From positions 1-64,000 of the forward strand of contig NZ_MLFS01000013.1 in assembly GCF_002095485.1 (NCBI RefSeq): a stretch of DNA of 64,000 bases, written 5' to 3'. The notes beneath the pieces were generated by a model. The model was given only the letters and a program-made list of their open reading frames with translations. It was not told the origin of the DNA and searched no databases. The stretch is from Pantoea wallisii. GTDB taxonomy: Bacteria > Pseudomonadota > Gammaproteobacteria > Enterobacterales > Enterobacteriaceae. Below, piece by piece: positions 5,986 to 22,652 of this stretch (its first letter is position 1; every line of letters starts with the position of its first letter). The position numbers and the translations under genes were made by a program.

Positions 5986-6333
5986 TTAAATCTGGCGGAA
6001 GCGGCTGCGTACGCTAAAGGTCTCTGAAGTGACGTAACGCTCGATCTCCCGCACATTACGCTCATCGCTTTTCAGCGTGCTTTCCAGTTCATCCAGCAGT
6101 TCGCGCGCCGTGGGCGTGTGCGCGTCCGGCACACCGGCTGGCTTCTCATCCAGCACGTAGCCCAGGATAAAGTAGGCCGTGACGGTGAACATAAACAGGC
6201 CGAAAAACAGCGACAGGACAACAATCACGCGCAGCAGACGCACCGGAATATCAAGGTACTCTGCCAGCCCGGCACAGACGCCGCGCACTTTACCCTGTTG
6301 CGGGATGCGCCACAGTTTGCGACCGTTCATCAT
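5986..6333 (-). CDS. pspC: Phage shock envelope stress sensor PspC
   Basis: A 115-residue inner-membrane protein with the PspC domain: KLWRIPQQGKVRGVCAGLAEY at the N-terminus, one transmembrane segment (about 35-60) and a C-terminal leucine-zipper-like amphipathic region ending RSRFRQI. Together with PspB it senses membrane damage and sequesters PspA, freeing PspF. The ATG overlaps the pspB stop by four bases, typical of coupled translation in this operon. Confidence 0.96.
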   Translation of the reverse strand: MMNGRKLWRIPQQGKVRGVCAGLAEYLDIPVRLLRVIVVLSLFFGLFMFTVTAYFILGYVLDEKPAGVPDAHTPTARELLDELESTLKSDERNVREIERYVTSETFSVRSRFRQI

Positions 6334-6557
6334 GGCTGCCTCCAGCTCGGATGTTCTGCGTCCAGGATGGCTTCCAGCGCTTCAACGCGCTCACGCATGC
6401 GGCGTGCGTCCTGCGTGAGCTGCTGCAAACGCTGCATGTCGCTGGCAGAGAGCTCGCCCCCGCCGTTACGTTTATTGCTGTAGTGTAGCCATAACCAGAT
6501 CGGCGCGACAAACAGCACGAAGATCGTTAAGGGTATGGACAGAAATAGTGCGCTCAT
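6330..6557 (-). CDS. pspB: Phage shock protein PspB
   Basis: A 75-residue protein with one N-terminal membrane helix (FLSIPLTIFVLFVAPIWLWL) and a cytoplasmic coiled-coil rich in Arg and Glu (LTQDARRMRERVEALEAIL). It partners PspC in signalling membrane stress to PspA. Length and organisation are those of E. coli PspB. It follows pspA by 59 bases and overlaps pspC. Confidence 0.96.
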   Translation of the reverse strand: MSALFLSIPLTIFVLFVAPIWLWLHYSNKRNGGGELSASDMQRLQQLTQDARRMRERVEALEAILDAEHPSWRQP

Positions 6558-6616
6558 TGACTCTCCTTAATCATTAACACCCATTATAAGCGGGCCCGTG
6601 ACCAGGCCCGGTGCCA

Positions 6617-7282
6617 TTACTCGCTGCGGTTCATTTTGGCTTTCAGGGCCGCCAGCTGCTGGCTGATCTCATCATCGGCTTTCAGCTCGGCAAACTCCTG
6701 ATCCAGCGATTTTGGCTTGCCGAAGCGCTGACTCTCCGCTTCTGCTTCCATGTGATCGATGCGACGTTCAAACGACTCAAAACGCGCCATGGCTTCATCC
6801 AGTTTGCCGCTGTCGAGCTGACGACGCACATCGCGTGATGAGGAGGCCGCCTGATGACGCAGCGTCAGCGCCTGCTGACGGGCGCGGGTTTCGCTCAGTT
6901 TCTTCTCCAGCTCAGCGATTTCACCTTTCATCCGCTCCAGCGTCTCTTCTACCTGCGTGGCTTCCTGATGCAGCGCCGCGATCAGATCGGTAAGTTTCTG
7001 TTTTTCAATCAGCGCTGAGCGGGCTAAATCCTCTTTCTCTTTGCTGATGGCCAGTTCGGCTTTCTCCTGCCACTCCGCCTGCTGAATTTCAGCCTGCTCA
7101 ATACGGCGCAGTAGCTGTTTCTTTTCCGCCAGCGCGCGAGCGGATGTGGAACGGACTTCAACCAGCGTGTCTTCCATCTCCTGAATCATCAGGCGTACCA
7201 GTTTCTGCGGATCTTCGGCGCGTTCCAGCAGGGAGTTGATGTTGGCGTTCACGATGTCGGCGAAACGAGAAAAAATACCCAT
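6617..7282 (-). CDS. pspA: Phage shock protein PspA
   Basis: A 221-residue, almost entirely helical coiled-coil protein of the PspA/IM30 (ESCRT-III-like) family, beginning [20 protein letters not shown], which contains the membrane-binding amphipathic helix. It has two jobs: it inhibits PspF in unstressed cells and, when released, oligomerises on damaged inner membrane to limit proton leakage. It is the first gene of the operon, directly behind the sigma-54 promoter at 7331-7350, with a GAGGAAC ribosome site before the ATG at 7282. Confidence 0.98.
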
Positions 7283-7330
7283 AATGATGTTCCTCTGATT
7301 GTCATGTTTATGCGCAGTACGCTCTTAGCT

Positions 7331-7350
7331 AATACAAATCGCGTGCCAAC
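7331..7350 (-). promoter_or_regulatory. Sigma-54 promoter of pspA operon
   Basis: On the minus strand the sequence TTGGCACGCGATTTGTATT fits the sigma-54 consensus, with GG of the -24 element and TTTGT as the -12 element, and closely resembles the E. coli pspA promoter. It lies 49 bases upstream of the pspA start. The segment 7351-7445 between it and pspF must hold the PspF-binding sites and the pspF promoter, which I could not place by eye. Confidence 0.9.
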
Positions 7351-7445
7351 TTTTAATTGTCTGTTTTTAAAGGCCTTAGCGATTTTACAGTCGGGCTGGA
7401 TTCCGTTAAGGTAGTGAAATTCATTAATCTGTGGCGAAATTCATC

Positions 7446-8450
7446 ATGGCAAATGGCAACGACAACCTGCTTGGCGAATCCAACAACTTCCTGGAAGTCC
7501 TTGAACAGGTCTCACGACTGGCGCCGCTGGAGAAACCGGTGCTGGTGGTGGGTGAACGCGGCACAGGGAAAGAGCTGATCGCCAGCCGTCTGCACTATCT
7601 CTCTGACCGCTGGCAAGGGCCGTTTATCTCGCTTAACTGCGCCGCGCTGAATGAAAACCTGCTGGATTCAGAGCTGTTCGGTCACGAAGCGGGCGCCTTT
7701 ACCGGCGCGCAAAAGCGTCATCTTGGCCGCTTTGAACGTGCAGATGGCGGCACGCTATTTCTTGATGAACTGGCAACAGCGCCGATGCTGGTGCAGGAGA
7801 AGCTGCTACGGGTGATTGAGTATGGCCAGCTGGAGCGCGTGGGCGGTAACCACTCGCTGCAGGTGAATGTGCGCCTGGTATGCGCCACCAATGAAGATCT
7901 GCCGGCGCTGGCCGCCGCCGGAAAATTCCGTGCCGACCTGCTCGATCGCCTGGCTTTTGATGTTGTGCAGCTGCCGCCGCTGCGCGAGCGCCGCAGCGAT
8001 ATTCTGGTGATGGCTGAGCATTTCGCTATTCAGATGTGCCGTGAGCTGGGCCTGCCGCTGTTTCCCGGCTTCACGGAGTCTGCACAACAGGCGCTGCTTA
8101 ACCACAGCTGGCCCGGCAATGTGCGTGAACTTAAAAACGTGGTGGAGCGCTCGGTGTATCGCCATCACAGCAGTGACGAAGCGCTGGATAACGTCATCAT
8201 CAACCCGTTTGCCCGCCGCAACGCGCCGGCGGGCAGTGAAGCGGCACCTGCCAGCGACCTGCCCGCCCTGCCCGCCCTGCCGCTCGATCTGCGCCAGTGG
8301 CAAAACCAGCAGGAGCGCAATCTGGTGGATGCGAGCCTGCAACAGGCGAAATACAACCAGCGCCGTGCCGCAGAGTTATTGCGGGTAACCTACCACCAGT
8401 TGCGCGCCATGATGAAGAAGCACGGTATACAGGCGCGTGACGAGAATTGA
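7446..8450 (+). CDS. pspF: Sigma-54-dependent activator PspF
   Basis: PspF, the enhancer-binding activator of the psp operon, lacks a receiver domain and starts directly with the AAA domain: Walker A GERGTGKE at 36-43, an intact sigma-54 contact loop GAFTGA at 83-88, Walker B LFLDE near 104-108, and a C-terminal Fis-type HTH (NQRRAAELLRVTYHQLRA). I chose the ATG at 7446 (334 residues, MANGNDNLLGES), which aligns with the E. coli N-terminus; a GTG at 7431 in the same frame would add five residues. The gene is divergent from pspA. A short Pro/Ala linker precedes the HTH. Confidence 0.96.
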   Translation: MANGNDNLLGESNNFLEVLEQVSRLAPLEKPVLVVGERGTGKELIASRLHYLSDRWQGPFISLNCAALNENLLDSELFGHEAGAFTGAQKRHLGRFERADGGTLFLDELATAPMLVQEKLLRVIEYGQLERVGGNHSLQVNVRLVCATNEDLPALAAAGKFRADLLDRLAFDVVQLPPLRERRSDILVMAEHFAIQMCRELGLPLFPGFTESAQQALLNHSWPGNVRELKNVVERSVYRHHSSDEALDNVIINPFARRNAPAGSEAAPASDLPALPALPLDLRQWQNQQERNLVDASLQQAKYNQRRAAELLRVTYHQLRAMMKKHGIQARDEN

Positions 8451-8506
8451 AAGACGTTTGAAGGGTGCAGATTGTTTTTTTAAGACCGCAGCAGTCAGAA
8501 GCAGGT

Positions 8507-8600
8507 AAAAAAAAGCCCGCACAGATAGGCGGGCAACTTAATACTGGAAGCAATGTGAGCAATGTCGTGCTCTTCTTCGGTAGAGCCACCGTCGAAGCGC
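8507..8600 (-). ncRNA. ryhB: RyhB-type iron-regulated small RNA
   Basis: The minus strand between pspF and sapA carries the RyhB signature. The 33-base core at 8540-8572 (from AGCACGACATTGCTCACATT to CCAGTATTA) is, as far as I can recall E. coli RyhB, identical to its target-pairing core. It is followed by a GC hairpin (GCCCGC/GCGGGC, 8515-8534) and eight U residues ending at 8507, a normal Hfq-binding terminator. A good -35/-10 pair places the start near 8600, giving about 94 nt, close to the 90 nt of E. coli. RyhB represses mRNAs of iron-using proteins under iron limitation. No gene on the same strand explains the terminator otherwise. Confidence 0.93.
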
Positions 8601-8604
8601 AGAA

Positions 8605-8636
8605 GAATAATAATCATTCTTATTATCATCTGTAAA
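8605..8636 (-). promoter_or_regulatory. Promoter and Fur-box-like repeat of ryhB
   Basis: On the minus strand TTTACA (8631-8636) and TATTAT (8607-8612) form a sigma-70 promoter with an 18-base spacer. Overlapping it is an AT-rich palindromic run (GATAATAAGAATGATTATTA, 8608-8627) that resembles the Fur box GATAATGATAATCATTATC. This is the expected arrangement for iron-repressed RyhB transcription. Fur control is inferred from this resemblance. Confidence 0.82.
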
Positions 8637-8787
8637 GCCCTAATTGAGAATTTTTCTCATTTCCACACTAACACTGTGCTCTCCTGTCGCACTCGCTGCC
8701 TAAAATGCCGGCAGAACCGTTGCCGATTTGGGGAGTGCGCAACCTTTGCGATACACTCAGGCTATTGCCTGAGAATCGTTGAGTTCT

Positions 8788-10410
8788 ATGCCAAAATTAT
8801 TCCCTTCGCTGCTGCTTGGTCTCAGCGTAATGAGTGCGTCTGCGTTCGCCGCTCCGGTGGACACTATTCGTCAGAGCGGCTTTGTCTACTGCGTGAACGG
8901 TACGGTGAACACCTTTAATCCGCAGATGGTCAGCAGCGGCCTGGTGGTGGATACGCTGGCTGCGCAACTCTATGACCGCCTGCTGGATGTTGATCCCTAT
9001 ACCTATCGTTTAGTGCCCGATCTGGCACAGAGCTGGGAAGTGCGTGATAACGGCGCAACCTACCGTTTCCACCTGCGTAAAAACGTCTCTTTCCAGCACA
9101 CCAATACTTTTACGCCAACCCGTAAAATGAACGCCGATGATGTGGTGTTCAGCTTTGCACGTATGTTTGATCGCCGGCATCCCTGGCATAACGTGAATGG
9201 CGGCAGCTACCCCTACTTCGACAGCCTGCAGTTTGCCGACTCTGTCCAGAGCGTAAAAAAACTCGATAGCGATACGGTAGAGATTCGCCTCAACAGCCCG
9301 GACGCCTCATTTTTGTGGCATATCGCCACCCACTATGCGCCGGTACTGTCGCAGGAGTATGCCAGCCAGCTCAGCGCCAAAGGCCAGCAGGAGCAGCTGG
9401 ATCGCGAGCCCGTGGGCACCGGCCCTTATCAACTGAGCGAATACCGCACCGGACAGTATCTGCGTCTGGCGCGCAATCCGCGCTACTGGCGTGGCGTGCC
9501 GCGCCTGCAGCAGGTGGTGATCGACCTGGGCGTTGGCGGTACCGGTCGCTTATCCAAACTGCTGACCGGAGAGTGTGATGTGCTGGCCTATCCGGCGGCC
9601 AGCCAGCTCTCCATTCTGCGGGATGACCCGCGCCTGCGCATGACGCTGCGCCCCGGCATGAATATCGCCTATCTGGCGTTCAATACCCGCAAAGCGCCGC
9701 TGGATCGCCCGGAAGTGCGCCACGCGCTGGCGCTGGCGATCAACAATGAGCGCCTGATGGAGTCCATCTATTACGGTACGGCAGAAACCGCCGCGTCGAT
9801 CCTGCCGCGCGCGTCGTGGGCCTATGATAATGATGCACGCGTTACCGAGTACAATCCGGACAAAGCGCGTGAAGCTCTTAAGGCGCTGGGCATTGAAGAT
9901 CTTCACCTGCGGCTGGTGGTGCCAACCACTTCGATGTCATGGAACCCCAGCCCGCTGAAAACCGCCGAACTGCTGCAGGCCGATCTGGCGCAGGTGGGCG
10001 TCACCGTGACCATTGCGCCCGTGGAAGGTCGCTTTCAGGAGGCACAGCTGATGGCCATGAACCACGATTTGACGCTTACCGGCTGGGCGACGGACAGCAA
10101 CGATCCTGACAGCTTCTTTCGTCCGCTGCTGAGCTGCGCCGCAATTCGTTCGCAAACCAACTATGCGCACTGGTGCTCGCCGGCATTCGATGAAGCGTTG
10201 CAGCGCGCCCTGCTGTCACAGCAGCTCTCCGCGCGCATCGACAGCTACGATCGTGCCCAGCAGATTCTGGCGCAGGAGCTACCGGTACTGCCGCTGGCAT
10301 CCTCGCTGCGCCTGCAGGCTTATCGACATGATATAAAAGGATTGGTGCTGAGTCCGTTCGGTAATGCCTCGTTTGCAGGCGTCTACCGCGATGAGAACGG
10401 CGAGGAGTAA
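8788..10410 (+). CDS. sapA: Peptide ABC transporter substrate-binding protein SapA
   Basis: A periplasmic solute-binding protein of the DppA/OppA family (SBP_bac_5), 540 residues from the ATG at 8788; a TTG at 8779 would add three. A Sec signal peptide ([19 protein letters not shown]) is cut before APVDTIRQ. SapA gives resistance to antimicrobial peptides in Salmonella and, with SapBCDF, has been linked to peptide and haem uptake and to putrescine export in E. coli. It is first in the sap operon, two bases before sapB. The ryhB gene is divergent upstream, so 8637-8787 must hold the sap promoter. Confidence 0.95.
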
Positions 10411-10412
10411 GC

Positions 10413-11378
10413 ATGATTATCTATCTTTTACGTCGGTTACTGCTGCTGATCATCACGCTGTTTCTGCTTTCGCTGGTGAGCTTCAGCCTCAGCTACTTCA
10501 CGCCCAACGCCCCGCTGGAGGGCGCTTCGCTGTTTGATGCCTGGTGGTTCTGGTTTAAAGGCTTGCTGCAGTTCGATTTCGGGGTGTCCAGTACCAATGG
10601 TCAGTCTATCGATCTGCAACTGCGCGAAGTGTTTCCCGCCACGCTGGAGCTGTGCGTGCTGGCCTTTACGCTGGCGCTGCTGGTGGGCATTCCGCTGGGC
10701 ATTACCGCCGGCGTAATGCGCAAGAAGTGGCAGGATAAAGCCATCAGCGCGCTGGCGCTGCTGGGCTTCTCCATGCCGATCTTCTGGCTGGCGCTGCTCT
10801 TTACCCTGTTCTTCTCGCTAACGCTCGGCTGGCTGCCGGTATCGGGCCGCTTTGACCTGCTCTACCCGGTGCAGAATGTCACCGGTTTTGCCCTGATCGA
10901 TGCATGGCTGAGCCCCTCGCCGTGGCGTCATGAAATGCTGGTGAGCGCGTTAACGCACCTGATCCTGCCGGTGCTGGTACTGGCTGTGGCGCCAACCACA
11001 GAAGTGATCCGCCTGTTGCGCAGCAGCACCAGCGAGGTCATGGATAAGAATTACGTTAAGGCCGCTGCCACACGCGGACTTTCGCGCTTGACCGTGATTC
11101 GTCGTCACGTGCTGCACAATGCCCTGCCGCCGGTGATCCCGCGCCTTGGCCTGCAATTTTCAACCATGTTAACCCTGGCGATGATCACTGAAATGGTGTT
11201 TAACTGGCCGGGATTGGGACGCTGGCTGATTAATGCCATTCGTCAGCAGGATTACGCGGCGATCTCGGCCGGCGTGATGGTGGTTGGCGGACTGGTCATT
11301 CTGGTGAGTGTGCTGTCGGATATTCTGGGCGCGGCGCTAAATCCGCTAAAACATAAAGAGTGGTATGCCCTGCGCTAA
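10413..11378 (+). CDS. sapB: ABC transporter permease SapB
   Basis: A 321-residue inner-membrane permease of the OppB/DppB class, with about six membrane segments and the cytoplasmic EAA-type loop near [20 protein letters not shown] that docks the ATPase. It starts two bases after the sapA stop. In E. coli sapC overlaps the end of sapB; here sapC begins only at 12474, after a cold-shock gene on the other strand, so the transcript from sapA may not reach sapCDF. Confidence 0.95.
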
Positions 11379-11464: not shown

Positions 11465-11670
11465 TATGCATTTATGGCGCAGCGGCCACAATGTCGTCAA
11501 CAGACGCAGCATTAGCCGTTAACTGATAATTGCGTGACTGAAACCATATTCGACTTACAAAAAATACATTTTGCGCCGAGCGGGTTTTTAAGCGTGATAT
11601 CAAAAACGGAGCGTCGATATTGAGAGCCCTGACAGTGAGAGCACCTCATAAAATAGATAGCTGAAATAAC

Positions 11671-11883
11671 TTATAGACCTGTAACGTTGGTAGCTGACGG
11701 GCCTTTAGGACCATCCTCTACATTAAATTCGACTTTCTGACCTTCATCCAGCGAGCGGAAATCGCTGCCCTGAATAGAGGAGTAGTGCACGAAAACATCC
11801 TTGCTGCCATTTTCTGGCGTAATAAAGCCAAAACCTTTTTCATTGTTAAACCATTTAACCGTACCGGAAATTTTACCAGACAT
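11671..11883 (-). CDS. Cold-shock-domain protein (CspA family)
   Basis: A 70-residue single cold-shock domain, [20 protein letters not shown] at the start, with RNP1 (KGFGFI) and RNP2 (VFVHYS) and the usual C-terminus [10 protein letters not shown]. Such proteins bind single-stranded RNA/DNA and act as RNA chaperones or anti-terminators. A longer frame reaches 12057, but the domain starts at the ATG at 11881-11883 with an AAGG ribosome site just upstream; the rest is probably a long 5' leader, as csp mRNAs often have. It lies on the opposite strand inside the sap operon. Which csp paralogue it is cannot be decided by eye. Confidence 0.95.
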
Positions 11884-12473
11884 ATTATTACCTTTTATTT
11901 TTAGCCGTTTGGCGATGAGGGCTGAATGCAGAGACACATCAGAACTTGAGATAAAACTCAAATGGAAGGCTGAAGAGCGGCGCTTACATAGCTGAGAGAT
12001 AAATGGGAACCAACAATGAGACTGTCTGCTTATCAGACCGGGAAGCCATTTACTCACGCGGACAAATTAAAAGCAATATATAAAAGAAATTAATTTTTTG
12101 AACTTATCCTTAAAAGAATAACCGGCCTGTTTTATCGTGAACACCCGCTTTAAGAATTACGCGTCCCGGTAATTAACCGTACCGGCGCCCGGGTGCCTGA
12201 GCCGGCAATGGGGGCGAGTGCCGCAATCTTAACCGTTCATGACCCGTAAATGAAATTGCTGACGCCGTTTCCTTGCCTGGGCACGGGATATCGGCGGATA
12301 ATCTTTTACAGAGCGGCGCCGGCACGCAGGTCAACCTGCGGTCCAGCGCCAGCCGCTGCGCAATCGTCACAGCGAGCACACATGAATACGCATATAATCA
12401 AGGCAATGCATTGATATGAAGACTTTGTACCGACACTATCAGCCAACGCTTAACTCACACCCAGCGATTGCCT
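11884..12473. other. 590-bp non-coding gap between csp and sapC
   Basis: The csp-proximal part (11884 to about 12150) is AT-rich and presumably holds the csp promoter and 5' leader. The sapC-proximal part has a TATAAT at 12393-12398 that could be a -10 element for sapC, but no convincing -35 was seen. No coding frame here looks real. Confidence 0.5.
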
Positions 12474-13363
12474 ATGCCATTTGATAACGTTTACGCCGAG
12501 AAAAGGTTACCAGGCGCTTTCCGTCTCAGCTGGCAGCGGTTTTATCGTGATACGGGCGCGATGATCGGCTTATACGGTTTTGGCATGCTGCTGTTTTTGT
12601 GTCTGTTTGGTGGCCTGCTCGCGCCGTACGGTATTGACCAGCAGTTCCTCGGCTATCAGCTGCTGCCGCCTTCGTGGTCGCGCTACGGTGACGTCTCGTT
12701 TTTCCTTGGCACAGACGATCTGGGCCGCGATGTATTGAGTCGCCTGCTGAGCGGCGTAGCGCCGACGGTCGGCTCTGCGCTGCTGGTCACCCTGCTTGCG
12801 GCACTGTGCGCGCTGGTGCTTGGCGTGCTGGCTGGCATCACTCACGGGCTGCGTTCGGCGGTGATGAACCATGTTCTCGATACTCTGCTGTCGATCCCCT
12901 CCCTGCTGCTGGCGATTATCGTTGTGGCGTTCCTGGGGCCGCGCCTGGAGCATGCGATGCTGGCGGTACTGCTGGCGTTGATTCCACGCCTGGTGCGGGA
13001 AATCTATACGGCAGTCCATGATGAGATGGAAAAAGAGTATGTCGTGGCGCTGCGCTTGATGGTGCCCGTAATCTGAACATTCTGTGGAATGCGTTGCTGC
13101 CGAACGTGCTGCCGCTGCTGGTCAGTGAGTTTACCCGCTCGTTGTCGATCGCCATTCTGGATATTGCCGCGCTCGGTTTCCTTGACCTGGGCGCACAGCT
13201 GCCCTCGCCGGAGTGGGGTGCGATGCTGGGGGATGCGCTGGAGCTGATCTATGTTGCCCCCTGGACGGTGATGCTGCCGGGCGCCGCGCTGATGGTTAGC
13301 GTGTTGATTGTTAACCTGCTGGGCGATGGCATCCGTCGCGCCGTTGAAGCGGGAGCTGAATAA
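12474..13363 (+). pseudogene. sapC: ABC transporter permease SapC, single-base frameshift
   Basis: A permease of the OppC/DppC class. Residues up to YVVALRL and from about GARNLNILW onward both match SapC but lie in different frames; a C is missing near 13055 (CGCCTT expected, CGCTT present). Restoring it gives 296 residues, exactly the E. coli length. As written, translation stops at 13076. The N-terminus [11 protein letters not shown] at the ATG at 12474 corresponds to E. coli MPYDSVYSEKR. The stop overlaps sapD by one base. The loss is probably a sequencing error, because sapD and sapF downstream are intact. Confidence 0.88.
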
Positions 13364-16146: not shown

Positions 16147-16417
16147 GGATTTATTCTCGCCCTGCGCCTTTTCTGCTTTTCTCTGATTTGACCTGCTTAC
16201 TTCGAAGCTCAGGTTTTTCAATTGCTATACCCTGAATTGGCACCCGCCGGGCCGCCATAAGCAACACCTCTCTTATACCTGGTCGCTATTAATTATTCCG
16301 CATCAATCTTTTGCCGCAGCCGGGGGTTCAGCGACGATAAGCTTGCCCTTGAATCACGACGGCCTTTTCAGAATTACCCGTCGGAGATTCAGTCCGAATT
16401 TTGCGCAAGGAATGACC

Positions 16418-17544
16418 ATGGAACAACGCCGTTTTCCCGGCCATGATCACTGGTTTTATGAAAGCCAGACTCGTCCGCACGCCTCCGCTGCTGCACCGCT
16501 GGTGCCCGAAGCCGCCCATATTGACGATCGCTTTCTGCTGGGTCTGCAGCAGGAAGCCACTGCCCTGCAGCCGCTGTTCCAAAGTTTTCAGCCGGTACTG
16601 CTGGCGGCACGTGATGTAAGCCAGATTCTGTTTCCCGATAGCGTCCATACCTCGCTCACCCATACGTTAACGCTGTACGATCGGCTAAGCACCGCGCTTA
16701 CGGTTGCACAGGTTGCAGGGGTTCAGCGCCTGTGTAATCACTACGCGGCGCGTCTCAACCCGCTGCCGGGGCCCGACTCCTCGCGGGAGAGCAACAATCG
16801 CCTGACGCAAATCACGCAGTATGCCCGCCAGCTGGCGATGCAGCCGGCGTTGATTACCCGGCAAAGCATTAAGGCGCTGGATGCCGTAGGTTTGACCGAA
16901 CCGGATATTGTGACGCTCAATCAGCTGGTGGGGTTTGTCAGCTATCAGGCGCGCGTCACCGCAGGGCTGCAGGCGATGATGGGGCTGCCGGTACGCTGGT
17001 GCCCGGCGTCACGCCGCCACCAGATGCCAGCGCCGCGCTGTTTAGCGCCGACGCTGGCGCGCAGCCGGTCCTGAAGCCGGTCGAGCTGCGCTATGCCAGC
17101 GCTGATCAGCTGGCGGCCATCACCCTTTGCAAGGATATCAGTGAAGTTGATGACGCCCTGTGGCTGCTGGTGCACGATGCGCAGGCGCTCTATGGCTGGG
17201 CCACGCTGAAACAGCATCTTGATAAGCATTTTATGGCTGATGAGAGGCTGGCGCAGGCGGTCAGCGCCCGTCTGCTGGGCTGCCGCTGCCAGTTCAACCG
17301 CTTATCCGGTACATGGCGGGCAGCGCTGTTGCAGGATATTGATACTGCCGGCACGCGCGCACAGCAGCAGATCGTCGCGCTCAGCGCTCAGCTCACCCGC
17401 CTGCCGGAGCGTTTTAGCGCGGCCCACCTGCAGCCGCTCCTCAATGCTGGCTGGAGCAGCGAGCGTCTGTTTACGCTGCTGCAGGCTGTGGCTTTCGCCA
17501 GCTGGCAGGATCGCTTACTGATGACGCTGGGCGAAACGCGCTAA
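16418..17544 (+). pseudogene. yciW: AhpD-like protein YciW, single-base frameshift
   Basis: The product resembles YciW, a carboxymuconolactone-decarboxylase/AhpD-fold protein linked in E. coli to the CysB sulfur regulon; its reaction is not established. The N-terminal 190 residues (MEQRRFPGHDHWFYESQ) are in one frame and the rest (VPGVTPPPDASAALF to LMTLGETR) in another. One base, probably a G in CCGG, is missing near 16990. Corrected length is 375 residues, the E. coli length. The ATG at 16418 has an AAGGA site six bases upstream; an ATG at 16412 is too close to it. Its stop overlaps that of the convergent LysR gene. Confidence 0.8.
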
Positions 17545-18447
17545 TCCGGCAGGTGCCGGCGCGCTTCATCAAAGAAATGCTGAGCCAGCGGCGATGCCCT
17601 GCCCGGCTCGGCAATCACCAGCGCCGCCTGGCGGCCCATGGGCGCCATCTCAATCGGCCTGCGCGCCAGGTTTGCAGCATCTCCGGCAGCAGGTGCCGCA
17701 GGGCGCTACCATCACGCCTAATCCTACCTGCGCGCTCTGCAGAAGCTGCATGATGGAGGCGCTTTCGACAATCACGCGCGGCAGCACGCCGGTTTCCCGC
17801 AGCTGTCCATCCAGATAGCGGCGGAAATAGCGCGTCGGCTCAGCCAGGCACAGCGGCTGGCGGGCCAGCGTATGCAGAGAAACCGTTGCGTTCTCCAGTA
17901 ATGCCGGGAAGCAGTGCGGATTAAAAACCGCCTCCACGCCGCGATCTTTCAGCAGCGCGGTCTGAAAGTGCAGCTCACGCAGTGAGGTAAGCTCAAAGAA
18001 GCCAATACCGCCATCCACGGTGTGGCTGTTGAGCGCCTCCAGCAGCTGATCGGCACTCATCGCTGAGACCCGGTAATCGAGCTGCGGATAGCGCGCCTCT
18101 ACCGCCTTCAGCAGGGCCGGCAGCGCCACGCTGCACTGTGGCATGACGCCCAGCCGCAGCGTACCGTTAACGCCGTGCTTTAGCGACTCAACCTCCAGCT
18201 TCAGCCCCTGATAGACCGAAACGATTTCGCGTGCCCACGTCAGCACGCGCTCGCCCTCCGGCGTAAAGCCATCGAAGTTATTGCTGCGGTTGATCAGCGA
18301 AAGCCCCAGCTCACGCTCCAGGTTTTTCAGCCGCATCGACAGCGTTGGCTGACTGACAAAACTGGCTTCCGCTGCACGGCCGAAATGACGCTCACGCTCC
18401 AGGTTGCACAGGTAGATCAATTGCTTGATGTCTATTTTCTCACCCAC
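17541..18447 (-). pseudogene. LysR-family transcriptional regulator, two single-base frameshifts
   Basis: An N-terminal winged HTH (DIKQLIYLCNLERERHFGRA, then SFVSQPTLSMRLKNLERELG) and a substrate-binding domain mark a LysR-type regulator. Near the end two bases are missing, a C near 17702 and an A near 17672, both in homopolymer runs. With both restored the protein continues LRHLLPEMLQNLARRPIEM and ends RRHLPD at a TAG at 17541-17543, for 302 residues, the normal family size. As written the frame ends at 17650. I do not recognise its regulon. It is upstream-adjacent to neither a divergent gene nor an obvious target; the PTS gene on the same strand precedes it by 59 bases. Confidence 0.82.
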
Positions 18448-18506
18448 TCATGGCTTATTGAATCGCGGGTATGTTAGCAAACCCAGGCACAAATTGATCC
18501 GGCGTG

Positions 18507-20095
18507 TTACGCCACACCTAACGCGCTTTTCACCTCATTGGCAATTTTCTCCACCTGCGGGCCATAAATCACCTGAACGTCATGCTCGCTTACGCGGTTC
18601 ACGCCATTCGCCCCGGTGGTGAGCAGCGTCTTATCTACCACCTCTTTCATCTCTTTAACGCGCACGCGCAGACGCGTAAAGCAGCAATCGACGTCCTCTA
18701 TATTGGCCTCGCCGCCCAAACCGCTGATGATAACCCGGGTGCGCTCATCGGCAGCGACCTGCTGCGGCTTCTCCTCTTCGTCACTCTCACGTCCCGGCGT
18801 TTCTACGTTCATGCGTGTAATCACATAGCGGAAACCGTAGTAGTAGAGCGGCGCATAGACAACGCCGAGCGCCAGGGTCCACCACCAGTGCGTTTTGCTG
18901 CCGCCCAGCACGCCAAATACTACCAGGTCGATAATGCCGCCCTGCACATTACCGATCATCAGGTGCAGCATCGACATCAGCATGAATGAAAGCCCGGTAA
19001 GCAGTGCATGCAGGATATAGAGCACCGGTGAAACGAAGATAAAACAGAACTCCAGCGGCTCAGTGATGCCGGTGGTAAATGAGGTTAGCGCCCCCGCCAG
19101 TACCAGCGCCTTCACGCGCTGTTTGTGTGCCGGCTTCGCCGTGTGGTACATCGCCAGGGCCGCTGCCGGCAGGCCAAACATCATTACCGGAATTTTACCC
19201 TGCGCCAGAAACTGGGTGGCGCTGCGCACGGTCTCATCCGGAATGGCCCCGGGATTAGTCAGTGAGGTGTTGAAGATGTTAAGCGCGCCGACAATGGTTT
19301 GCCCGTCAACGGTGGCCATGCCGCCAATGGGCGTGAAGCGCACGGTCTCATTCAGAATGTGGTGTAAACCGGTAGGAATCAGCAGGCGCTCGCCCGTTCC
19401 GAGCAGAAAGGCGCCGTACTGCCCGCTCTTACCAATCATCTGACCTACCCAGCGATGCCAGCGCCAATGGTCGGCCAGATCAGCGCCAGCAGCACGCCGA
19501 TCAGCGGCAGCACCAGAATGGTGACAATCGGTACAAAGCGACGACCGCCAAAGAAACTGATCGCCGTAGGCAGCTGCTGAGTATAGAAGCGGTTATGCAG
19601 CACCACCGTCATTAGCCCGGCAATCACTCCGCCCAGCACGCTCATGTTGTAGGTAAAGATGCCCAGCATCTCGATATATTCCGCGGAGGTCATCATCGCC
19701 GTGGTTTGGTCCATCCCCGCCTGCTGCAGCGCCTCCGGCGTGGTGGTCGCAGCGGTCAGCCCTTTTGCCGCCAGCGTGGCGCTGATGCCCACGTTCAGCG
19801 CAATATAACCGATGATCGCCGCAAATGCCGCCGTGGCCTTCTCAGCTTTTGCCAGTCCGATGGCGCTGGCAACGGCAAAAAATACCGGCAGATTGGCAAA
19901 CAGTGCGGCGGCTACTTTACGGATAAAGCCGATAATTAACTGCGGCACCTGCATATGCGCAAAGGCATCGCCGGTGACGGCTGGATTTTGCATGGCGGCT
20001 GCCAGGCCGAGGAATATCCCGGCGGCGGCGATGACGGAGATCGGCATCATCAATGCTTTACCGAAGGCGTGAATTTGGCTGGTCAGATTCTTCAT
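18507..20095 (-). pseudogene. PTS EIICB, glucose/maltose type (MalX-like), single-base frameshift
   Basis: An EIIC membrane domain (about 10 hydrophobic segments, with the FTTGITEPLEF motif of this transporter class) is followed by a C-terminal EIIB domain whose phosphorylated cysteine lies in DCCFTRLR, equivalent to the usual DNCITRLR. N-terminal and C-terminal parts are in different frames around 19447 (GCTGGG then TAGGTCAG; one base missing gives AGLGQMIG). Corrected length is 529 residues, right for MalX/PtsG-like proteins. The sugar is not identifiable; it resembles MalX more than PtsG. The gene is divergent from the YdeP-like gene and absent from this position in E. coli. Confidence 0.8.
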
Positions 20096-20343
20096 GCGGC
20101 GTGCCCTTTCTGTGGCCGAAAGAGCAATTATTAGCCAGTTATGTGTAACCCATGCAGTTGCAGCGCTGTAGCGGCCGATAAAGTTTGAAGCCCATCACGT
20201 TTCAGCACTGCTGGCAGCGATAAACGTTAACTATCGCACCATTAAGTCAATCAATTAGACAACTTTTGCCGCCAGTCGCACACTTCCCTCCAACAGAAGA
20301 CATATTCTGATAACAATTCATAAACAATAAGCCTGCAACGACT

Positions 20344-22652
20344 ATGAAATTTAAACGTAAGATCCAGCCTTATCGCGCCGCCGCTGGCGGCTGGGGCTCT
20401 TTGGAAGCCACCACCCGTTTCGTTCTTGACAGCAAAGCCGCCCTGAAAAATATGCGCAACCTGATGCGCATGAACAAAGCGCGCGGTTTCGACTGCCCGG
20501 GCTGTGCATGGGGCGATGACAACAAAAGTACCTTCAGTTTCTGTGAAAACGGCGCCAAAGCGGTGACATGGGAAGCGACGCGCCGCGTCGTGGAGCCTGA
20601 GTTTTTCGCCCAACACAGCGTCAGCACGCTCTATCAGCAGAGCGACTACTTCCTTGAGTATCAGGGCCGTCTGACCCACCCGATGCGCTACAACAGCGAA
20701 ACCGATCACTATGAGCCCATCAGCTGGGACGAGGCGTTTGCGCTGATTGCACAGCACCTCAAGGCGATGGATCACCCGAATCAGATGGAGCTGTATACCT
20801 CCGGCCGTGCCAGTAACGAAGCCTCCTGGCTCTATCAGCTGTTTGGCCGCGTTATGGGCACCAACAACTTCCCTGACTGCTCCAACATGTGCCATGAAGC
20901 CAGCGGCACCGGCCTGAAGCGCAGCATTGGCGTGGGTAAAGGCACCATTCGCCTCGACGATTTCGACCACGCGAACGCGATCTTTGTTTTTGGTCAAAAC
21001 CCGGGAACCAACCATCCGCGTATGCTGCACAGCCTGCGTCACGCCGCGGACCATGGCGCGAAGATCGTCACTTTTAACACTTTGCGCGAGCGCGGGCTGG
21101 AGCGTTTCGCCGATCCGCAGAAGCCGCTGGAAGTGGTGACCTCAATGGCAGGCACCATCAGCTCTGCCTATTACCAGCCGAACCTCGGCGGTGATATGGC
21201 AGCCGTGCGCGGTATGGTGAAAGCGCTGCTGGAAGAGCAACGCAAGCGGCTGGATAACGGCGAGAAAGGTATTTTTGATCAGGCCTTTATTGATGCGCAT
21301 ACCCAGGGCGTTGAGCAGTATCTGGCAGCGGTCGATAACACCCGCTGGGATGATATTGTGCGCCAGTCGGGCCTGAGTGAAGCGCAGATTCGTGAAGCTG
21401 CGGCAATTTATCAGAGCGCTGAACGTGTGATCATCACCTGGGCGATGGGCATCACGCAGCATAAACACTCTGTGGATACGGTGCGTGAAATCACCAACCT
21501 GCAGCTGCTGTTCGGTCAGTTGGGTAAAAAAGGCGCGGGTCTCTGCCCGGTGCGCGGCCACAGTAACGTGCAGGGCAACCGCACGATGGGTATCGATGAG
21601 AAGCCAAATAAGCCGTTCCTCGATGCGCTGGGCGCCCACTTTGGTTTTGAACCGCCGCGCGAGCACGGTCACAACACGGTTGAAGCGCTGAACGCCATGC
21701 TGCGTGATGAAGTCAAAGTGCTGATTGCCTTAGGTGGCAATCTGGCCGCAGCGGCGCCGGACTCCCCTGTCACCGAAGAGGCGCTGCAGCACTGCGGCCT
21801 GACGGTGCACATCAGCACCAAACTGAACCGCAGCCACCTGGTGCCGGGTCATGAAGGGTTAATCCTGCCGACGCTGGGCCGTACCGAGCGCGATCGTCAG
21901 GCAAGCGGCAATCAGTTCATTACCGTTGAGGACTCCTTCAGCATGGTTCACGCCTCGGAAGGCGTGGGCATTCCGCTGGCCGAGACGCAGCGTTCTGAAA
22001 CCGCAATTGTTGCGGGTATCGCTCACGCGACCCTGGGCAGCGATAAGATCGACTGGCAGGGCATGGCCGCAGACTACAATGTGATTCGCGAGCACATCGC
22101 CGCCACCATTCCCGCTTCGCCGACTTCAACAACAAGTGTGACCAGCCGGGCGGGTTCTATCTGGGTAATGCTGCGGCCGAACTGCGTTTCAACACGCCAT
22201 CGGCGCAGGCCGAGTTCAGCGCCGCCGCCCTGCCGGATTCGCTGTTCCCGCAGTTGGGTGCCGATGTGGAGGTGCCGTTTACGCTGCAAACCCTGCGTTC
22301 GCACGACCAGTACAACACCACGATTTACGGCCTCGATGACCGTTACCGTGGCGTTTACGGCCAGCGCGAAGTGGTGTTTATTCACCCGGAGGATATGTCC
22401 GCACTTGGCTTCAGCGAAGGCCAGCTGGTGGATATTGAAACCCTGTGGAACGATGGCCTGACGCGCCGGGTCAGCGGTTTTAAACTGGTGCCGTACAATA
22501 TTCCGCGTGGTAACCTGGCAGCCTACTATCCGGAAACCAACCCGCTGGTCCCGCTCTCCAGCTATGGCGACGGCAGCGGTACGCCGACCTCAAAATCTGT
22601 GCCGGTTAAACTGGCACTGAGTGCCGCAGTGCCGACACAGCGCATCGCCTGA
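20344..22652 (+). pseudogene. YdeP/FdhF-family molybdopterin oxidoreductase, single-base frameshift
   Basis: A formate-dehydrogenase-alpha-like molybdoenzyme closest to E. coli YdeP. The N-terminus AAAGGWGSLEATTRF and the cysteine set FDCPGCAW plus FCENGAKAV can bind an iron-sulfur cluster; the MCHE motif supplies the likely molybdenum ligand; GHSNVQG and NRSHL belong to the cofactor-binding regions. A G is missing near 22113 (CCCGGC expected), after which the frame continues FADFNNKCDQPGGFYLGNA to TQRIA at 22652. Corrected length is 769 residues (E. coli YdeP 759). Its substrate is unknown; YdeP is tied to acid resistance in E. coli. It is divergent from the PTS gene, with 248 bp between. 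Confidence 0.82.

Follow-up and report, generated by a model that had tools for sequence, protein, structure and literature searches.

RyhB-type small RNAs (sRNAs) have been described in several relatives of the bacterium studied here, and the statements below follow those parts of the open-access articles that were available. In Erwinia amylovora, ryhB is placed at pspF/sapA in the orientation > < >, assigned to RF00057, and confirmed by Northern blot, and a deletion was made (Table 1 of PMC4070566); without hfq, its depth was 2.7% and 2.1% of that of the wild type, and a second RyhB homolog, Hrs15, is given as 73% identical (PMC4070566). Two RyhB sRNAs, RyhB and RyhB2, were found in Pantoea ananatis by RNA-seq, and in qRT-PCR ryhB2 differed from most in not being lowered without hfq (PMC6749038). 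RyhB1 and RyhB2 have been described in Yersinia (PMC4211561, PMC4773443), a pair is likewise described in Salmonella (PMC4211561), and Y. enterocolitica has two RyhB (PMC10342277). Since the Yersinia and Salmonella pairs are published, RyhB siblings that diverge at their 5′ ends are a known kind.

The element analysed here lies on the minus strand between pspF and sapA in a stretch of DNA of 64,000 nucleotides, which is called the window throughout and to which all positions refer unless marked otherwise. We put the probability that the element is a RyhB2-type gene, i.e., a second copy of RyhB, an Hfq-dependent sRNA under Fur repression, at about 0.93. It is a RyhB paralog, and its positional ortholog has been published; the location is already known and not new, because ryhB of E. 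amylovora is printed there in the available part of PMC4070566.

Identity and architecture of the element

Family membership was determined with the RF00057 covariance model, for which Rfam gives a gathering score of 55. The model matched positions 8508–8574 of the minus strand over its full length (1–67 of 67) with 70 bits and an E-value of 4.8e-11, i.e., above the curated threshold. The conserved core GCACGACATTGCTCACATTGCTTCCAG is present, and the longest exact identity with E. coli K-12 ryhB comprises 33 bases. The Rho-independent terminator, recovered by both site scan and fold, consists of a stem (8534–8515) followed by TTTTTTTT (eight T); one terminator-like site was found in a 400-base stretch, compared to 0.4 expected in shuffles. 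The promoter is composed of TTTACA (8636–8631), an 18-base spacer, and TATTAT (8612–8607), agrees with the consensus in 10 of 12 bases, and is one of two promoter-like sites in the 400-base stretch, where 0.5 were expected by chance. Counting 7 nt past the −10 box puts the predicted start at G8600, which would yield an RNA of ~94 nt, and this predicted RNA folds (−28.6 kcal/mol) with a stem-loop at its 5′ end, a largely unpaired core, and the terminator. The features are collected in Table 1.

Table 1. Coordinates of the sRNA gene, its control region, and its neighbours in the window.
Feature	Position	Strand	Basis
Predicted RyhB-2-type sRNA transcript, ~94 nt	8507..8600	-	G8600 to end of U8 tail; RF00057 match 8508-8574
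33-base RyhB core, E. coli-identical, presumed mRNA-pairing region	8539..8571	-	exact shared stretch
5′ stem-loop with GGCUCU loop region, in Erwiniaceae pspF-sapA copies	8569..8600	-	fold; 48-sequence alignment; pair counts
Intrinsic terminator stem-loop, U8 tail 8507-8514	8515..8534	-	fold, terminator scan, pair counts
Sigma-70-type promoter TTTACA-18-TATTAT	8607..8636	-	promoter scan; similar arrangement readable at the other ryhB copy
Overlapping Fur-like boxes over spacer and -10; best 19-mer 8609-8627, 15/19	8603..8627	-	Fur consensus scan
Fur-like 7-1-7 palindrome TGAGAAAAATTCTCA, second site, shortly upstream of -35 box	8645..8659	-	motif scan, locus comparison
pspF, convergent neighbour	7431..8450	+	ORF; pspF annotation under plasmid matches of the stretch
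Gene taken to be sapA (gene order and recall), divergent neighbour	8788..10410	+	start codon read, ORF, relatives

An earlier note on this DNA, made from its letters alone, had proposed a RyhB-type sRNA on the minus strand between pspF and sapA, with the 33-base core, a GC terminator with U8, and a promoter overlapped by a Fur-like repeat. All of this was recovered, the family by the 70-bit match, the terminator by scan and fold, and the overlap by Fur-like boxes that cover spacer and −10 box; the hand-read core is shifted by one base from the 8540–8572 given there.

Copy number in the genome and the genus

RF00057 searches gave matches in both the window and the whole genome (4.65 Mb in 149 contigs), which contains two, i.e., the window copy and a second match at C1:58257-58322. 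The latter scored 84.9 bits, above the window copy, and is flanked by homologs of YhhY and GntR of E. coli (53% and 76% identity, respectively); yhhX had no match in the 3-kb locus around it. The window copy lies between pspF and sapA and not by yhhY/gntR, i.e., outside the canonical locus. Whether it was the only copy or a second one had been left as an alternative in the earlier note: the second-copy reading stands, and the only-copy reading is ruled out by the two matches.

Exactly two RF00057 matches were also found in each of the 12 same-genus genomes searched (own genome included). Across the 11 relatives, the lower-scoring copy had sapA within its 3-kb locus in 11/11 and pspF in 10/11, and the higher-scoring copy had ggt or gntR in 11/11. 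In the wider family, 191 of the 295 genomes drawn had a match; among the 20 listed of the 104 genomes without one, each was at most 2.4 Mb in size. Annotation and models of the iron regulon of these bacteria need both ryhB copies.

Conservation of the location

Named genomes were scanned for SapA, and the best 80 of 267 loci were taken, the closest SapA among these being that of P. dispersa (96%, L074); by this similarity, the bacterium studied here probably belongs to Pantoea. The RyhB core was found upstream of sapA in 57 of the 80 named loci; 46 of these have it demonstrably between pspF and sapA, and for the other 11 the locus as retrieved contained no match to pspF. A further 12/80 have neighbouring pspF and sapA but lack ryhB, and the remaining 11/80, all Serratia records, showed neither ryhB nor pspF. 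The ryhB-bearing loci belong mostly to Pantoea, Erwinia, Mixta, and Winslowiella, and include Acerihabitans, Sodalis, Edaphovirga, one Serratia sp., four metagenome records (family or order name only), and two records named Enterobacter; the 12 adjacent, ryhB-less loci are from Buttiauxella (eight), Cedecea, Dryocola, one Enterobacter sp., and one Pantoea. Among the relatives' loci of the wider-family search, pspF was near ryhB in 8 of 30 (best-scoring only). As the earlier note had stated, the location differs from that in E. coli: K-12 has ymjA and the puu genes between sapA and pspF, with no ryhB annotated there, and its ryhB is found between yhhX and yhhY with gntR nearby. In Erwiniaceae and some neighbouring groups, the pspF-sapA region is a well-conserved second location of RyhB.

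The two records named Enterobacter ludwigii and Enterobacter cancerogenus (L034 and L039) look misnamed, because their SapA is 94% identical to that of the window and they carry the pspF-sapA ryhB. Megablast of positions 6001–11000 against plasmids matched 559 records, and the 20 matches listed cover the psp part only (region 6340–8176 with pspF, pspA, and pspB, ~76% identity) and not ryhB-sapA; the plasmids with psp operons are from Klebsiella, Enterobacter, Salmonella, and others.

Fur-like sites of the control region

Scans were performed with the 19-base Fur consensus. The best match in the whole 64-kb window is the 19-mer on the ryhB promoter, a putative Fur box and the sole site scoring 15/19, with further overlapping Fur-like matches across 8603–8627. 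The 15-base palindrome upstream of the −35 box scored 11/14 against the 7-1-7 Fur motif, which is unremarkable for the palindrome alone because the window has 12 strand positions with this score and one site above it; the version of some relatives is nearer to the motif (TGAGAATAATTATCA). Allowing up to 3 mismatches, the palindrome was present in 57/57 ryhB-bearing loci and was not found in 23/23 ryhB-less loci (positions 1000–2560 of each searched). Over 330 bases upstream of the SapA match, Fur 19-mer scores peaked at 10–12 in the 23 ryhB-less loci, compared to 13–17 in 53 of the 57 ryhB-bearing ones (10–11 in the other 4), and in the 110 bases preceding the core they peaked at 12–17 in all 57.

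Because the palindrome was found in all ryhB-bearing and none of the ryhB-less loci, and Fur scores are mostly lower in the latter, it is read as part of the ryhB control region and, judged by sequence, is probably a second Fur operator. An assignment to sapA was rejected, as the palindrome was not found in 23/23 ryhB-less loci; a different, sapA-proximal motif, GAGTGCGATACACT, persists in all 23 with at most 2 changes. In the limited open-access literature available in part, no description of a double Fur-like site at a pspF-sapA ryhB was found.

Conservation of the 5′ hairpin

For the alignment, 51 Erwiniaceae-type loci were chosen from the 57 (the other 6 were left out), which comprised 48 distinct sequences, and the window was aligned with 47 of the distinct sequences (48 in total). 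The core is almost invariant, with one substitution (L076), and the 5′ hairpin is conserved. In a structure of 17 pairs, 98.6% of the cells are paired across the 48 sequences, compared to 37–53% in slid versions of the structure. Changes on both sides of a pair occur in 5 of the 17 pairs, a value attained by 0 of 500 shuffles; three of them fall in the 5′ hairpin (97.9% of cells paired) and two in the terminator stem (100% paired), and kinship among the sequences can inflate such covariation counts.

A decaying, silent duplicate is an extremely unlikely explanation of the element. It would fit the lower model score compared to the other copy (70 vs 84.9 bits) and the missing core at the locus of one record named Pantoea (L080), but of the 57 loci with the core, 54 have it without a mismatch and 3 deviate by one or two bases, the promoter pattern is found in 57/57 (by either of two expressions), the terminator stem is retained with its two doubly changed pairs, and the E. 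amylovora ortholog is expressed (PMC4070566, part available).

The reading as a second RyhB copy leaves room for a sibling with a job of its own, in which the 5′ hairpin and its GGCUCU loop add targets, stability, or regulation compared to the yhhY-gntR copy. This is possible, at somewhat less than even odds. It is in line with the pairing and the both-sided changes of the hairpin, with the retention of both copies in 12/12 genus genomes, and with the different 5′ parts that other lineages have at this locus; the 5′ part also differs from that of E. coli, as sequence comparison confirmed for the earlier note. According to the available part of a review, 5′ divergence may be one reason why the RyhB siblings of Salmonella have distinct targets (PMC4211561). 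Against it, stability alone could explain a 5′ hairpin, the single-sequence fold is unexceptional (z only −1.66 vs shuffles), and the RNAalifold covariation term is small (−0.36), with kinship weighing on the counts as stated above. The limited open-access literature, as far as available, yielded no description of a covarying 5′ hairpin in a pspF-sapA RyhB.

Predicted targets and mode of action

Candidate targets were scored by the simple duplex energy of the core with 32-base windows around start codons, without accessibility, and 47 genes of the window served as background. Target prediction with the core had been proposed in the earlier note, and its outcome was mixed: the sdhC start ranked high at −24.9 kcal/mol (1/47 window genes as low; better than 46/47) and the sod start fairly high at −22.8 kcal/mol (3/47 as low), but iscS (−18.2 kcal/mol, 11/47) and iscR (−16.7 kcal/mol, 18/47) were ordinary and msrB was poor (−9.8 kcal/mol, 44/47); the gapA control start gave −9.8 kcal/mol (44/47). 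By hand reading, the sdhC pairing would cover the apparent Shine-Dalgarno sequence and the GTG start. When the 5′ part was used instead of the core, no candidate target or neighbour was prominent (sdhC as the best with 6/47 background genes as low, sapA 13/47, pspF 27/47, pspA 34/47), which speaks against a sibling with additional targets.

In the proposed mode of action, Fur would leave the overlapping boxes on the promoter when iron is short, and the ~94-nt RNA would be made; its single-stranded core would then pair, with Hfq, with the start regions of mRNAs for iron-using proteins, e.g., sdhC, and lower the translation and stability of these mRNAs. An iron response, Hfq dependence, and target repression are expected of the pspF-sapA copy from its orthologs and from general knowledge of RyhB.

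sodB is the textbook target of RyhB. The own genome has one Fe/Mn-SOD gene (C4:12558-12875), and a single gene of this kind was counted in every one of the 12 genus genomes, its type having been read in the own genome only. Since the gene of the own genome is Mn-type by its first 35 residues, sodB appears to be absent. It is rather doubtful that the pspF-sapA RyhB of Erwiniaceae differs in function from its sibling in the full sense, with a selected GGCUCU stem-loop and a double Fur operator giving it a target set and an iron threshold different from those of the canonical copy, in a genus apparently without sodB. The paired siblings form a clean set for studying the contribution of a 5′ domain and of an additional Fur-like site to a shared pairing core.

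Relation to the psp and sap operons

The earlier note had also suggested that the neighbourhood of psp and sap may link iron limitation to envelope stress and antimicrobial-peptide transport. This was not supported: pspF and sapA stay together without ryhB in 12/80 loci, and pairing of the core with the starts of pspF (−15.8 kcal/mol), sapA (−12.9 kcal/mol), and pspA (−12.7 kcal/mol) is ordinary, being matched or bettered by 20, 34, and 35 of the 47 window genes, respectively, so that these genes were rejected as local targets. That the window copy couples iron limitation to the adjoining psp or sap operons is very unlikely, even with two other sap genes taken into account. By duplex energy, the starts of sapD and sapF take the second- and third-lowest places among the 47 window genes, and over the genus loci in which they were measurable (9 of 12, own window included) their means are −23.0 and −21.4 kcal/mol, compared to means of −10.0 to −17.5 kcal/mol for six further genes from this stretch, each measured in 5 to 11 loci. 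The sapF site is at about the same place in 9/9 loci but encodes the N-terminus of the ABC-ATPase, and the best sapD site moved in 3/9; the ranking is post hoc, with energies that disregard accessibility, and the core is common to the distant copy, therefore the pairing is not specific to the pspF-sapA location. Because of the coding role of the sapF site and the shared core, the predicted sapD/sapF pairing is a weak lead.

Three further observations concern the sap region and the sequence beyond it. A cold-shock (cspA-type) gene with a match to the thermoregulator RF01766 lies between sapB and sapC (11619–12057, minus strand), and tblastn gave no hit for it in the E. coli stretch or in eleven same-genus stretches, some with a partial sap operon. 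The sapC frame (12468–13363, plus strand) stops early at 13076, and the SapC of four relatives, 296 residues long, was matched only to residue 195, an apparent frameshift that is either real or an assembly error. Split or shortened-looking ORFs within 16343–22461 (16343/16999, 17650, 18507/19445, and 20344) hint at base-level errors in the assembly.

Comparison with known systems

E. amylovora RyhB is alike in family, flanking genes, orientation, and terminator, and is Hfq-dependent and Northern-confirmed there; it is unlike in length, with 140 nt given compared to ~94 nt predicted for the window copy, and the available part of PMC4070566 gives neither a 5′ hairpin nor a double Fur box for it. 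In P. ananatis, the 82-nt one of the two RyhB sRNAs (pPAR246) would, judged by length, correspond to the pspF-sapA copy of that species (L063), for which ~83 nt were counted by hand (PMC6749038, part available). The primers given there for RyhB2 had no match in the pspF-sapA locus of that species; RyhB2 of P. ananatis was thus ruled out as a label for this locus and is probably the other copy. E. coli RyhB (b4451) shares the identical 33-base core, a Fur-like box over the promoter, and a terminator, and differs in its locus (yhhX-yhhY), its 5′ part, and its terminator stem. The Yersinia RyhB1/RyhB2 pair and the Salmonella siblings, as far as described in the available part of PMC4211561, resemble the present pair in that there are two copies with divergent 5′ ends, of which one is located as in E. 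coli and the other is distal.
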